From: Candidatus Eremiobacteraceae bacterium
Lineage (GTDB): Bacteria > Vulcanimicrobiota > Vulcanimicrobiia > Eremiobacterales > Eremiobacteraceae
Direction: 5' to 3'
Length of the DNA stretch: 64,000 nucleotides
NCBI GenBank assembly: GCA_036511855.1
Contig: DATCBN010000098.1
Span: forward strand, 1-64,000
Below the pieces are notes generated by a model. That model worked only from the letters and a program-made list of their open reading frames with translations, was not told the DNA's origin and ran no database searches. The translations under genes and the position numbers were made by a program. Below are positions 3,009 to 62,614 of the stretch, piece after piece. The stretch's first letter is position 1. Each line of letters starts with the position of its first letter.

Positions 3009-6000
3009 TTGAAAACCGAGTTGCTCATCTCGTGCGACGATTGGGAGAACCGCGTCGCCGTCCTCGAAGAGGGATCGTTGGCCGAGATCTACTTCGAACG
3101 TGAAGAGAAAGTCATCGGCTCCATCTATAAAGGCCGCGTCGAGAACGTCCTGCCCGGAATGGGCGCAAGTTTCGTCAACATCGGGCTCGGCCGCAACGCG
3201 TTTCTGTACGTCGACGACGTCATGCGCGATCCCATCAATATCGGCGAGACGGAGATCACCGACCGCCGCAAGGGACACACCGTCAACGAACTGCTCCATC
3301 CCGCAGACGAGATTCTCGTCCAGATCGTCAAGGAGCCGCGCGGCCTAAAAGGAGCGCGCGTCTCCACCAACATCTCACTGCCAGGGCGCTACCTCGTGCT
3401 GATGCCGACCGGCCGCTATTCAGGCGTCTCGTCGAAGATCGAGGACGAGCGCGAGCGCGATCGCCTCAAACAGATCATGCGCGATGTCCGGCCCGACGGC
3501 ATGGCCACGATCGTGCGCACCGCCGCGCGCGGCGTGAGCAAAGCGGAGCTGATCGCCGATCTCGGCGTACAATTGCGCCTCTGGCACGGCATCCTCGAAT
3601 CGTTCAAACGCGAGACTGCGCCGGCGCTGCTGCACAAGGATCTAAACCTCGTCTTCAAGGCGGTCCGCGACTTCATGACGAGCGACGTCGAGCAAGTCGT
3701 CATCGATTCGAAGGAACAATTCGACGAGATCCGCCAGACGCTCTCGCTGCTCGGACCGCAATATTTGAGCCGGCTGAAACTATTCGAAGGGCCGGGCAAC
3801 CTTTTCGAGTCGCGCGGCATCGATGACGAGCTGCAGAAACTGCTCAAACCGAAGATCATGCTGCCGTCGGGCGGCCATCTCGTGCTCGAACATACCGAAG
3901 CACTCACGGTGGTCGACGTCAATACCGGAAAGTTCACCGGTGGACGCAATCTCGAAGATACGCTGGTCCGCACGAACATCGAAGCCGCTGCGGAAATCGC
4001 GCGGCAGGTGCGGTTGCGCGACATCGGCGGCATCATCGTCGTCGACTTCATCGACATGGCGCAGGAGCGCAGCCGCCAGCAAGTCATCGACACGCTCTCC
4101 GACGCGCTGCGGCGAGATCGCACGCGCAGCACAATCCAATCGTTCTCCAACCTCGGGTTATTGGAATTCACACGCAAGCGCGTGGGCAAGGATCTCGGCG
4201 GTCAACTGCGATCGGATTGTCCGTATTGCACGGGTCTCGGCACGGTGATGTCGAGCGAATCGCTCGCCATCAAATTGCTGCGCGACATCCGGCAGCGCGC
4301 GCGCAACGGAGAACGCGACAGAAAACTCGACGTCGTCATCGACCCGTCGGTCGGCACGCAGTTGATGGGCTGGTACCGCGAAGAATTCGAAAAACTCGGA
4401 AAAGCCAGCACCTTCGACTTGCAGATGTTCGTCGAGCCCCAGCGCCATCGCGAAAATGTCTTGCTTGAAAACGGTCACCGTACCCGCAAACCGCTCACGG
4501 TCGGCCGCGAAGTCGAGACCGAGTTGCTGTCCGTCCGCATGCCCGACCCGTCGTCCGGCGTTGCCGCGGTGGACGGGAATCTGATCGAAGTCAAGGACGC
4601 CGCGAACGGCGTCGGACAGACCGTCAAGATCAAGATCACCGCGATGGCCGGCAACCTCGCCAGCGGCGAACTGGCCGAACCCCTCCAGACTGCGCAGCGC
4701 CGCCGTCGCCGGGGTCGCGGCCACGGAAAAAGCGCCGTGGAGACCGAGGCGCCGATCGCGCCGCCGGTGCCCGCGCAGCGCGATCGCGACGTCCACGAAG
4801 AACCGGCAGCACGCGCCCCGCGCCGTGCCGTGCCGTTCGGCATGGACACCGACGAGGAAGAAGATTACACGCTTCGCGGCGGCCGACAGGCCGGCGGAGC
4901 AGTCGGCAGCGGCCGCGACGAGCGCCCCGCCGCAACGGGCACGCGAGACGACCGGCCGGCCGCAGGCCGCGGCGACGGACGGAAGCGCCCGGACGGACGG
5001 CGCGACGAACCGAAACGCGAAGATGGTCGCGGTGGTCGAGGCGGTCGAGGCGGCAGTCGCGACCGGGATCGCGATGCCGACAGGCCGCAACCGCTGATCG
5101 TCGGCGGTGAAGGCGACATCGACTACGAGGATAGCGATGATGACGCGGTGGTCGTGGTGCCGGCTGCCCGCAGCCAGCGTCCGGTCACTGCTTCAGTCGC
5201 GAGCGATCGCGGCTCGGCGCCCGCGCGCGGGCGAGAGCGTGAACGAGATCACGACCGTGAGCCGGTGCGCGATCGTGCGCCGGCACGAGATCGCGACTCT
5301 GTCCGAGATCGTGAACCACTGCGCGGCCGGGAATCGTCGAGGAGCCGCGAGCCGGTCCGCGACCGCGAGCCGATTCGAGATCGCGAGCCGATCCGAGATC
5401 GCGAGCCGATCCGTAGCCGTGAACCCGTCCGTGAGCGCGAGCCTGTTCGCGGCCGTGAACCCGTCCGTGAGCGCGAGCCTGTTCGCGGCCGCGAACCATT
5501 GCGCGACCGCGAGCCTGTTCGCGGCCGAGAACCATTGAGCGACCGCGAGCCTGTTCGCAGCCGAGAATCATCGAGCGACCGCGAGCCTGTTCGCGGCCGA
5601 GAACCATTGCGTGACCGCGAATCCGTACGTGACCGCGAACCGATTCGTGACCGCGATCCGGTCCGTGACCGCGAACCCGCACGAGGGCGCGAACCGGTAC
5701 GTGACCGCGAACCCGTGCGGGGACGCGAGCCGTTGCGCGACCGCGAACCTCTCAGAGGTCGCGAACCGCTTGACGCGCGAGATGTCGATCCCGACGTGGA
5801 CGCCGATGACCGTACCGACGGCGACGCACCGCGTCGGCGGCGGCGCCGCGGCGGTCGCGGACGTTCTCTCGGCGCAGCGCCGTTGGGCGTCGATCGCGAC
5901 GCGCTCGACGTGGCCGATGCGGACGTCGAGATCGTCGACGCACCGCGGGCGCGAACGATCCAAACCGATCCCGACCGATTCCGCAGCGAGTCTCGACCTG

Positions 6001-7830: not shown

Positions 7831-7835
7831 CAATA

Positions 7836-7942
7836 TGTAGGATGGCCATTGTACTAGGGCCATTGTACTAGGGCAAGCATCGCTTGCCCAAAAAATGGGT
7901 GAGCGATGCTCACCCTAGTACAGGAAATTCACCCTCCTACAG
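7836..7942. repeat. Palindromic repeat array R2 with terminal inverted repeats
   Basis: Composite element between convergent genes: GTACTAGGGC half units, GGGCAAGC-ATC-GCTTGCCC, an A6 linker, then GGGTGAGC-GAT-GCTCACCC and CTAGTAC. The outer ends TGTAGGATGG (7836) and CCCTCCTACA (7932-7941) are near-perfect inverted repeats. The right end overlaps the 3' end of the next minus-strand gene and supplies its stop codon. Confidence 0.9.
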
Positions 7943-12630: not shown

Positions 12631-12650
12631 CCCATTTAATTACCCCTATT

Positions 12651-12710
12651 TGTAGGAGGGCAAGCATCGCTCGCCCTGTAGGAGGGCAAGCATCGCTTGC
12701 CCATGGGCGA
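12651..12710. repeat. Palindromic repeat array R3 inside the pdxS-pdxT operon
   Basis: Two successive units, each TGTAGGAGGGCAAGC followed by the GCTCGCCC or GCTTGCCC arm. It is the only copy in the window between co-directional genes, and it ends 11 bp before the pdxT start. It places two strong hairpins in the intercistronic mRNA and may adjust the relative output of pdxS and pdxT. Confidence 0.88.
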
Positions 12711-20361: not shown

Positions 20362-20440
20362 AGTACTAGGGTAAGCCGTACTAGGGCAAGCATCGCTTGC
20401 CCATTTGGGTGAGCGTTGCTTTCCCTAGTACGGGATGCCC
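20362..20440. repeat. Palindromic repeat array R5
   Basis: GTACTAGGGTAAGC and GTACTAGGGCAAGC-ATC-GCTTGCCC, then ATTT, then a partly degenerate GGGTGAGC-GTT-GCTTTCCC and CTAGTACGGG. Between the convergent tmk and thrC genes. Confidence 0.9.
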
Positions 20441-27416: not shown

Positions 27417-27492
27417 CGTATTAGGGCAAGCGATGCTTGCCCTAGTACGGCTTGCCCTAGTACGGCTCGCCACAGTTCGGCTTGTCCTACTA
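27417..27492. repeat. Palindromic repeat array R6
   Basis: GTATTAGGGCAAGC-GAT-GCTTGCCC followed by CTAGTACGGCTTGCC, CTAGTACGGCTCGCC and CGGCTTGTCC half units, decaying to the right. Between convergent gdhA and the glutaredoxin gene. Confidence 0.9.
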
Positions 27493-49689: not shown

Positions 49690-50493
49690 TTGATCGCAGA
49701 TTTTCATCTCCATAGCAATCACAGCGACGGCGAGCTCTCGCCTTCGGCGCTTGTGGACGTGGTCGCCGACGCGGGGGTCGCGATCATGGCGCTCACCGAC
49801 CACGATACGACGTCGGGCCACGCTCAAGCGCAAGCGCGCTGCAGACAGCGCGGAATCGCGTTCGTTCGCGGCATCGAAATGACGACGTATGCGATGGACC
49901 GCGTCATACATGTCTTGGGTCTTGGGGTGCGGACGCACAACGAAGGGCTCGTCAGAGCGGGCGAAACCGCACGCGCCAACTTCGCGCAAAACCAGAAAAC
50001 TTGGGTGGACGCGCTCGCAGCACAGGGTGCCACCGTTTGGTGGCAGCGCGACTTTCCCGACGGCGCCGTGCGGCTGCCGGTCCTCATCGAACGACTGTGC
50101 CAGCGAGGCTTCGAAGGCGGCGACCCTCAGCGCGTGCACGCTGCGTTCCGGGCGTATTTTCGCGCGCTGCCGGGCAAGGCATACGCCCCGCTTCCTTCAC
50201 CACGCGCGGCGGCCGATACGATCCGCGCCGCCGGCGGGATCGCGATACTCGCGCATCCGTACAGGATCGCAGAAGATGCTTCGTGGCACGAGATCCTTGA
50301 CGGCATGGACGGCATCGAAGCGATGTATGCGACGTATCTGCCGGCGCAGCGCGAATCGCTGCTCGAAATCGCGCGGGCCAATAGCTTACTATATTCTTGC
50401 GGCAGCGACTACCATGGCCATTTCTTCGGCAAGTACCAAAATCCGAAATTCGAAGCGCCGCCCGAGCTGCTCGCACGCCTCCGCGCGTCTTGA
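49690..50493 (+). CDS. PHP-domain phosphoesterase (RNase AM/YciV-like)
   Basis: 267 residues with TTG start (ADFHLHSNHSDGELSP). PHP motifs: DFHLHSNHSDG, LTDHDTTSG, the Glu in RGIEMTTY, ILAHPYRI, and the final SDYHG. The middle insertion (FRAYFRALPGKAYAPLPSP) corresponds to the AMP-binding part of YciV-type 5'-3' exoribonucleases/3',5'-nucleotide phosphatases. Follows uppS by 21 bp. Confidence 0.85.
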   Translation: MIADFHLHSNHSDGELSPSALVDVVADAGVAIMALTDHDTTSGHAQAQARCRQRGIAFVRGIEMTTYAMDRVIHVLGLGVRTHNEGLVRAGETARANFAQNQKTWVDALAAQGATVWWQRDFPDGAVRLPVLIERLCQRGFEGGDPQRVHAAFRAYFRALPGKAYAPLPSPRAAADTIRAAGGIAILAHPYRIAEDASWHEILDGMDGIEAMYATYLPAQRESLLEIARANSLLYSCGSDYHGHFFGKYQNPKFEAPPELLARLRAS

Positions 50494-50504: not shown

Positions 50505-50595
50505 CTGTAGGAGGGTGAGCAACGCTCACCCCATTTTTATTTGAAAAAAAAACGGGGCAAGCGATGCTTGCCCTAGTACAATGGCCCTCCTACAG
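50505..50595. repeat. Palindromic element R7 with perfect 11-bp terminal inverted repeats
   Basis: Begins with CTGTAGGAGGG (50505-50515) and ends with CCCTCCTACAG (50585-50595), exact inverted repeats enclosing a 91-bp unit. Inside are GGGTGAGC-AAC-GCTCACCC, an AT-rich linker with A9, GGGCAAGC-GAT-GCTTGCCC and CTAGTAC. It is the clearest complete copy of the family. The polX stop codon is inside the right end. Confidence 0.92.
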
Positions 50596-52326
50596 ATTTG
50601 ATGACTTCGAGCGCTTGGCTTTCACGAACTTCAGCACGTCGGAAAGCCGCCGCGTGTTGAGCACGTCGGCGCGGGTCAGGCCGGCTTTGCGGGCGGTGCC
50701 GACGCCGAAGTGCATATGATCGAGCATCTCGACGCTATGCGCGTCGGTGTCGATCGATATCGTGCAGCCCATCTCTTTCGCACGGCGCGCCATCGCAGCG
50801 TTGAGGTCGAGCCGTTTCGGATTGGCGTTGATCTCCATCGCGGTGCCGCTTTGAGCGGCGGCGCGGAACACCGCTTCTTGATCGAATTCGTATCCGGCGC
50901 GCTTTTCGATGAGGGCGCCGGTCGGATGCCCGATGATATTGACGAACGGATTGCGGATGGCGCGGATCAGGCGCTCCGTCTGCTCCGCTTTGGAACGCGT
51001 GAACGCGGAGTGGATCGAGGCGACGACGATGTCGAGTTCCGCAAGGATCTCGTCGGGCCAATCCAGCGATCCGTCTGCGCGGATATCGACCTCGGACGAG
51101 CAGAGCAGGCGGACGCCGAATTGGTCGCGGGCTTTCTTTATCTCGGCGATCTGCGCGTGAAGACGCTCGGCATTGAGGCCGTTCGCCACTGCACGCCCCG
51201 GCGAATGATCGGAGATCGATAGATATTCTCGTTTGCGTTCGGCGGCCGCGCGCGCCATCTGCTCGATGCTGCGCGTTCCGTCGCTCCATGTGGTGTGATC
51301 GTGCAGATCGCCGCGGATGTCGTCGAGCGTGACGAGCTGCGGCAATGAATGTTTCTTCGCGAGGTCGATCTCGTCCAATCCCACGCGCAGCTCGGGCGGG
51401 ATGTATTGGAGATCCAGCGCCGCGTAGACGTCCTCTTCGCTCTGCATCGTCCGGATTTTACCGGTGGCGATCTCTTCGACGCCGTATTCGCTCACTTTGA
51501 GGCCGCGCGCCTTAGCAAGCTCGCGCAACTGGACGTTGTGCTCTTTGTTGCCGGTGAAATGTTGAAGCAAATTGCCGAAGCACTCGTGCGCCACCACCCG
51601 GCAGTCGATCGAGATACCGGGGGCGGCCCACACCGTCGCTTTCGTGTCGCCGAGACCTGCGACGCGCTCCACCATCGGCAGGGCGGCAAAGAACGCCAGC
51701 GCCTCGCTGGGAGTCGAACTCGTGCAGATGATGTCGAGATCGCCGACCGTAGGTTCCATGCGCCGCAACGAACCGGCAGCGGTGACGTTCTTCGCTAACC
51801 CGCTTTCGGCGAGCGCCGCCACCACCGACTGCGCGATGGGCCACGCGTCGCCCAGGCGCATGCGTTTTGTCCTTTGCGCCAGTTGGGCCAGCGCCGTGCG
51901 CAGATTCTCGATGCCTTTGGCGCCGAGCCGCGGCAGATTTGCGATCGACCCGTCGTCGACCACTTTGCGCAAGCCGGCGACGCTCACGACGCCAAGGTCT
52001 TTGTAGAGGGCGACTGCGGTCTTCGTCCCGACGCCGGGCACCGTCAGCAGCTCGAGCACGGTCGGCGGATACTTGCCGCGCAGCTCATCGAGATACGGGC
52101 ATGTGCCGGTACGGTCGATCTCGTCGATCTTTATCGCGATGGCTTTTCCGACGCCGGGAAGATCCTGGAGCGTGTGCGCCTCGATCATGGAACGCGCCGT
52201 CGATTCGGCATCTTCGAGGCTTCGTTTCGCCCGTTCGTACGCCCGGATCTTGAAGAAAGGCTCGCCGTCGAACTCCATTAGCGCGGCTATCTCACCCAAA
52301 CGGGCGGCGATGTCGACGTTGTTCAT
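50590..52326 (-). CDS. polX: DNA polymerase/3'-5' exonuclease PolX
   Basis: 578 residues from MNNVDIAARLGEIAAL. N-terminal helix-hairpin-helix region (DLPGVGKAIAIKI, LLTVPGVGTKTA), polymerase X catalytic motif AGSLRRMEPTVGDLDIIC with two Asp, and a C-terminal PHP domain (DLHDHTTWSDG, SISDHSPG, SSEVDI, IDTDAHSVEMLDHM). Bacterial PolX fills gaps in base-excision repair; the PHP domain gives Mn-dependent exonuclease. The last two codons (CTG TAG) belong to the terminal inverted repeat of R7. Confidence 0.95.
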   Translation of the reverse strand: MNNVDIAARLGEIAALMEFDGEPFFKIRAYERAKRSLEDAESTARSMIEAHTLQDLPGVGKAIAIKIDEIDRTGTCPYLDELRGKYPPTVLELLTVPGVGTKTAVALYKDLGVVSVAGLRKVVDDGSIANLPRLGAKGIENLRTALAQLAQRTKRMRLGDAWPIAQSVVAALAESGLAKNVTAAGSLRRMEPTVGDLDIICTSSTPSEALAFFAALPMVERVAGLGDTKATVWAAPGISIDCRVVAHECFGNLLQHFTGNKEHNVQLRELAKARGLKVSEYGVEEIATGKIRTMQSEEDVYAALDLQYIPPELRVGLDEIDLAKKHSLPQLVTLDDIRGDLHDHTTWSDGTRSIEQMARAAAERKREYLSISDHSPGRAVANGLNAERLHAQIAEIKKARDQFGVRLLCSSEVDIRADGSLDWPDEILAELDIVVASIHSAFTRSKAEQTERLIRAIRNPFVNIIGHPTGALIEKRAGYEFDQEAVFRAAAQSGTAMEINANPKRLDLNAAMARRAKEMGCTISIDTDAHSVEMLDHMHFGVGTARKAGLTRADVLNTRRLSDVLKFVKAKRSKSSNL

Positions 52327-62525: not shown

Positions 62526-62614
62526 TTGTGGGAGGGCCAGTTTTTGTAATAGGGTGAGCAACGCTCACCCATGGGCAAGCGATGCTTGCCCTAGTACAGG
62601 CTTGCCCTAGTACA
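62526..62614. repeat. Palindromic repeat array R8
   Basis: Starts with TTGTGGGAGGG (degenerate terminal repeat), then GGGTGAGC-AAC-GCTCACCC, AT, GGGCAAGC-GAT-GCTTGCCC and two CTAGTAC units. Between convergent yncE-like and livF genes. Confidence 0.9.

Follow-up and report, generated by a model that had tools for sequence, protein, structure and literature searches.

What is the 91-bp repeat that lies between two convergent genes at positions 50505-50595 of the window (the whole 64,000-nucleotide stretch of Candidatus Eremiobacteraceae DNA analysed here), and how did it reach this site? A sequence-only reading had taken it for a MITE-like, non-autonomous mobile unit with perfect 11-bp terminal inverted repeats and two internal hairpins, going beyond simple REP palindromes. 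Our analysis leaves us confident that the unit is instead a REPIN, i.e. two inverted REPs with their heads outward around an AT-rich spacer, very probably dispersed in trans by the host's REP-associated tyrosine transposase (RAYT). The parts of the locus are as follows.

49690-50493, plus strand: PHP-domain phosphoesterase gene, flanking and converging on the unit
50505-50595, no strand: the whole unit, a REP doublet (REPIN) of 91 bp with heads outward and exact TGTAGGAGGG at both ends, one of 12 such units in the genome
50507-50531, plus strand: left REP, head GTAGGA, TG-type hairpin GGGTGAGCAACGCTCACCC
50532-50554, no strand: AT-rich spacer of 23 nt (usual length 2-16 nt)
50555-50579, minus strand: right REP, inverted, head GTACTA, CA-type hairpin GGGCAAGCATCGCTTGCCC
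50580-50595, minus strand: extra outer head CTGTAGGAGGGCCATT of the double-headed right REP
50590-52326, minus strand: PolX-like DNA polymerase gene (HHH, pol beta thumb, PHP), flanking and converging on the unit

The unit reads CTGTAGGAGGG-TGAGCAACGCTCACCC-CATTTTTATTTGAAAAAAAAACG-GGGCAAGCGATGCTTGCCC-TAGTACAATGG-CCCTCCTACAG. The perfect 11-bp ends (CTGTAGGAGGG and its exact inverse CCCTCCTACAG) and the two hairpins (GGGTGAGCAACGCTCACCC at 50513-50531 and GGGCAAGCGATGCTTGCCC at 50555-50573) were borne out, and the unit folds far better than its shuffled versions on either strand (z = -6.2 and -7.9). It is a CA/TG heterodimer with a long 23-nt spacer. The left end, CTGTAGGAGGG, consists of the left REP's head and the first bases of its stem, while the right REP has its own GTACTA head by the spacer and a second head 15 nt farther out, within CTGTAGGAGGGCCATT. 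The 11-bp 'terminal inverted repeats' are thus unpaired GTAG-type REP heads, the right one being the outer head of a double-headed REP, and the unit does not go beyond REP palindromes but is a doublet of them (a REPIN or BIME). The TAG in the CTGTAG of the outer head (50590-50595) is also the stop codon of the PolX-like gene, and several other REPs in a 778-kb sample likewise overlap neighbouring stop codons (distances -7 to -1).

An 11-bp inverted repeat alone is weak evidence, because shuffling a 64-kb window is expected to yield about one or two perfect inverted pairs of this length within 100 bp, and as many as seven. That the unit is a real repeat follows from copy number. In the 3.07-Mb genome, whose composition predicts about 7 occurrences of TGTAGGAGGG, there are 171 (reversed control 0), and in 12 units of 63-93 bp an exact TGTAGGAGGG faces outward at either end (control 0). 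The claim of a multicopy, non-autonomous, mobile-element-like unit with conserved outward ends stands. The degenerate versions said to lie elsewhere in the window, including those at 7832-7942, 12650-12702 and 62546-62605, are real as well.

1828-1926, no strand: doublet of REPs of this family, its right side with extra heads
7832-7942, no strand: REP doublet with multiple heads and one-mismatch ends, probably the copy first labelled R2
12650-12702, plus strand: two tandem REPs in one orientation, GTAGGA heads
20363-20434, no strand: REP doublet, GTACTA heads, the left head double
27418-27482, no strand: REP with heads repeated on the inverted side
62546-62605, no strand: REP doublet with AT spacer, a one-sided copy of the ends, probably the copy first labelled R8

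Elsewhere in the window, an imperfect 18-bp repeat runs head-to-tail in about 25 copies at 5218-5793.

To describe the family we combined pattern counts over the whole genome (a draft of 112 contigs) with REP statistics from the 778-kb sample (25%), in which genes were called by a home-made script. The REP consensus spans 25 nt, with a head GTA-NN-A followed by GGG-[CA or TG]-AGC-NNN-GCT-..-CCC, or in short GTA[GG/CT]AGGG and a hairpin with an 8-bp stem and no bulge; its exact pattern, GTANNAGGGNNAGCNNNGCTNNCCC, occurs 539 times in the genome (reversed control 0). The 190 REPs of the sample (reversed control 0) carry mainly GTACTA (112), GTAGGA (36) and GTAGTA (12) heads, with minor types besides, such that the unpaired GTAG-type tetranucleotide of REPs is present but its majority form here is GTAC. 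The two main head classes are not separated by stem decay (stems perfect in 87% of the one and 83% of the other). The family has a sharp edge with unique DNA at T/GTAGG, where T precedes 51 of 61 GTAGGA heads and conservation ends beyond -3. A search of Rfam gave only chance-level matches, none near a family's gathering score.

Neighbouring REPs no more than 80 bp apart are arranged heads-outward ('+-') in 50 cases and the reverse ('-+') in 2, with 57 in tandem ('++' and '--'); at one locus, L165 (C4:124410-124770), about nine REPs follow one another in tandem every 42 bp, overlapping a predicted ORF of the opposite strand. Inverted doublets are thus mostly '+-', with spacers of 1-23 nt and a single one of 59 nt, and the '+-' spacers are short and AT-rich (AT, AATT, ATTTTTT and the like). 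CA-type and TG-type hairpins are combined in 37 of the 50 doublets and two TG types in none, where shuffling gave a mean of 23.6 mixed pairs and a maximum of 35 in 20,000 trials. Of the 112 GTACTA REPs, 52 (by a loose motif) have a further head outside, whole or as a remnant and mostly 14-20 nt upstream; of the 36 GTAGGA REPs, 1 does. These double heads may have come from slippage or from one doublet nested in another.

The autonomous partner with the same ends that the sequence-only reading called for was found, in the form of two RAYT (Y1_Tnp) loci, intact on contig C109 and frameshifted on contig C4. The C109 gene encodes 177 aa with the motifs DHVH and YITQNPVRA; it scores 95.5 bits against NCBIfam NF047646 (REP-associated tyrosine transposase, cut-off 80) and 39.6 bits against Pfam Y1_Tnp (PF01797, cut-off 23), and with its HuH motif, its tyrosine motif and a score above the curated family cut-off it is a RAYT (TnpA-REP). 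The C4 copy (L063:1504-1970), about 70% identical and split by a frameshift, is probably a pseudogene. Both genes are bracketed by outward-facing REPs of the family under study, two or three on one side and two on the other, as cognate RAYTs of REPINs are. An assignment of the C109 RAYT to GTAGGA and the C4 RAYT to GTACTA heads, suggested only by the flanks, was set aside, as stem decay gave no separation.

Elsewhere in the bacterial family, most of the RAYT loci found sit between copies of a tagged palindrome of their own, different from this one (in the case of congener G002 judged by reading the sequence). A contig scan with the RAYT, near relatives left out, recovered distant RAYTs with 27-44% identical segments in cyanobacteria, Planctomycetota, Verrucomicrobiota and others, and comparison with the PDB gave weak matches only, to IS200-type transposases. 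In RAYT subclass 2.7, defined by [ND]HVH, WQ, YI[LR][NQ]NP and long REPs (PMC6006769), the motifs come closest to the DHVH and YITQNP seen here; DHVH and the long REP fit, while YITQNP is not an exact fit, nor is the W motif, WH in place of WQ.

The expansion of the family is lineage-specific. Against the 539 exact-pattern REPs of this genome, the two congeners (G001 and G002) have 36 and 49 and the 58 other relatives 0-2, and TGTAGGAGGG occurs 0-3 times in each of the 60; the congeners' copies mostly have GTAGTAGGG heads and, by their listed positions, are nearly all singlets. Orthologous sites without the unit exist in other species: G001, G002, G003, G005 and G006 each have a PHP/PolX junction from which it is absent. 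This junction is bare, with no hairpin, in G003 and G005. The congeners' junction is not bare, G002 holding another hairpin (TGAAGGGGCC...GGCCCCTTCA) like those around its own RAYT; G009, and apparently G010 too, have REP-like palindromes of their own at the site. The REP family of G002, GGGCCGAC-N5-GTCGGCCC, has 263 copies there against 23 in G001 and 14 here; at L260 (G002:C26:1-6000) the G002 RAYT is bracketed by GGGCCGAC-ATAAA-GTCGGCCC with a CTTCA foot.

The C109 RAYT is likewise absent from the orthologous junction in both congeners, where G002 has one relic REP of the family studied here together with a doublet of its own family; in G001 the relic REP is accompanied by a 0.4-kb stretch that has G001's own REPs at both ends. 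This stretch, L262 (G001:C58, about 203735-204252), is bounded by outward-facing REPs of another family and shows no similarity to RAYTs. Judging from what these two junctions contain across relatives, the same convergent gene ends seem to have received different REP families in turn. The other REP sites of the window have no clean orthologous junctions, as the neighbouring genes differ. The site C4:43549 was rejected as a REP site shared across the genus; the congeners' REP there is opposite in orientation and so probably independent.

As for the mode of insertion, a direct repeat of at least 2 nt at the ends was found in none of 50 doublets, so that the proposed search for target duplications came out negative. 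Such an absence is expected under the single-strand chemistry of IS200/IS605-type elements and counts against a DDE-type MITE. Taken with the copy number, the geometry, the sharp boundary, the RAYT linkage, the lineage-specific expansion and the unit-free sites in relatives, it makes it very probable that these REPs were copied around by the host's single-strand transposase.

By analogy with RAYTs studied elsewhere, a series of catalytic steps and present-day activity of the RAYT may be presumed. Where a strand is single during replication or transcription, each REP would fold into a hairpin; the RAYT, a Y1 HUH enzyme, would recognize the hairpin together with its GTA-type head; its tyrosine would cleave near the head, and the doublet would be rejoined at a new site with no target-site duplication. 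Copies would then persist chiefly right after stop codons, above all between convergent genes. Cleavage of these particular REPs is suggested by published work on other RAYTs (PMC8266576). In that work a GTAC guide abolished (Sm) or redirected (Mb) cleavage. Against a ready reading of mobility, most REPs here have GTAC and not the canonical GTAG beside the hairpin. The unit-free junctions, moreover, come from other species, a comparison between species and not strains, so that any mobility at present is presumed.

An unlikely extension of the REPIN reading is that the guide has shifted from GTAG (as in the GTAGTAGGG heads of the congeners' relic REPs) and that the hairpin foot now bears GTAC, a canonical GTAG head lying 14-20 nt outward, while RAYT and REP families succeeded one another at the same convergent ends in sister species. 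If so, one genome has been caught in the middle of switching its guide tetranucleotide.

The location of the REPs is strongly biased. In the 778-kb sample, 77 of 81 REP clusters are intergenic, in keeping with the high-copy, extragenic character of REPs. Of the convergent gene pairs 43 of 117 contain REPs, of the tandem pairs 27 of 469 and of the divergent pairs 4 of 111 (convergent against the rest, Fisher P = 4e-18); among convergent gaps of at least 20 bp, about two-thirds (43 of 64) are filled. They lie about 15-17 nt from the stop codon (median 17), and in tandem pairs are nearer the upstream stop than the downstream start in 26 of 27 cases. This pattern fits that given for other species (PMC3733652), and target choice, loss of harmful copies or a function at 3' ends may each account for it; a literature search on REP heterodimers combined with convergent location returned nothing relevant.

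The last of these leads to the alternative that survives best, which is compatible with the REPIN reading and which we hold to be possible but lean against, namely that the units are now mainly functional 3'-end elements (bidirectional terminators or mRNA stabilizers) under selection, mobility being their origin only. Their concentration in convergent pairs and closeness to upstream stops, the T or A runs near the hairpins, and the presence of each species' own REP or hairpin at the same convergent ends all speak for such a role. However, TTTT lies within 14 nt of only 62 of 190 hairpins, loss of insertions in genes or promoters would give an equal location, and G003 and G005 manage with no hairpin at the same PHP/PolX junction. 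A terminator role in particular finds no support in the few spacer T-runs of tandem contexts, which are on the antisense strand (sense 0 of 5), and an intrinsic-terminator reading by T-run strand was dropped as unsupported on these five cases.

Passive origin of the doublets, as tandem or inverted duplications made by replication slippage at hairpins with no transposase, is very improbable: the '++' arrays with their 42-bp period and the heads repeated at 14-20 nt are what slippage would leave, and it may explain such local arrays, but copies lie at many unlinked sites on the contigs of this species while its congeners lack such dispersal, doublets are biased to '+-' and RAYTs are linked to the REPs, all of which argue against it. 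Scarcely credible, and largely refuted, is a classical MITE that arose by deletion from a DDE transposon and kept the 11-bp repeats as its transposase binding ends. This would suit the perfect inverted ends, the size of 63-93 bp and the multiple copies, but not the 0 of 50 target-site duplications, nor ends that are not of DDE-transposon type but REP heads joined to hairpins and found also on singlets, tandem '++' arrays and one-sided copies, nor the only genes seen with the same ends, which are Y1 HUH RAYTs and not DDE transposases.

Reading the unit as a RAYT-dispersed REPIN adds to this system a lineage that is apparently undescribed and whose RAYTs, as far as found, mostly have their own palindrome. 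The congeners offer a contrast, with 539 copies and a cognate RAYT in one species against 36-49 relics and no such RAYT in the two others, one of which has a 263-copy REP and a RAYT of its own. Strain sampling could thereby test whether RAYTs drive the spread of REPs and why REPs sit at convergent gene ends, and the presence of both GTAG and GTAC heads amounts to a natural experiment in how the cleavage site depends on the guide.

Among known systems, classical MITEs share with this unit small size, lack of autonomy, inverted ends and multiple copies, but here target-site duplications are absent, the ends are hairpin heads and an origin from a DDE transposon is not apparent. The BIMEs of Escherichia coli with TnpA-REP (PMC8266576) share the REP plus inverted REP and, presumably, a cleavable HUH-Y1 substrate with a GTAG guide; unlike them, the stem here has no bulge and pairs are nearly only heads-outward. 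The GTAG-tagged REP super-family and its REPtrons (PMC3733652; PMC6006769), the latter described as a RAYT between REPs (PMC6006769), share the tetranucleotide tag at the palindrome foot, the dimers with a preference for heterodimers, the sites after stops or between convergent genes and the RAYT flanked by REPs, but the dominant tag here is GTAC with GTAG farther out, and the published 'double foot', a reverse-complement foot at the 3' end, differs from our double heads. The REPINs of Pseudomonas fluorescens SBW25 (PMC3116915) share the inverted doublet, short spacer, predicted hairpin, hundreds of extragenic copies, cognate RAYT flanked by the same REPs and tandem clusters beside the RAYT, whereas the arms here are mostly heterodimers, with an extra outer head 14-20 nt upstream on many of them and GTAC on most copies. 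The unit is thus of a known kind of bacterial mobile repeat, the REPIN with its RAYT, here in a little-studied bacterial family in which every species has a version of its own; what is unusual is that GTAC is the majority head, that many REPs are double-headed and that REP families seem to succeed one another at given junctions.
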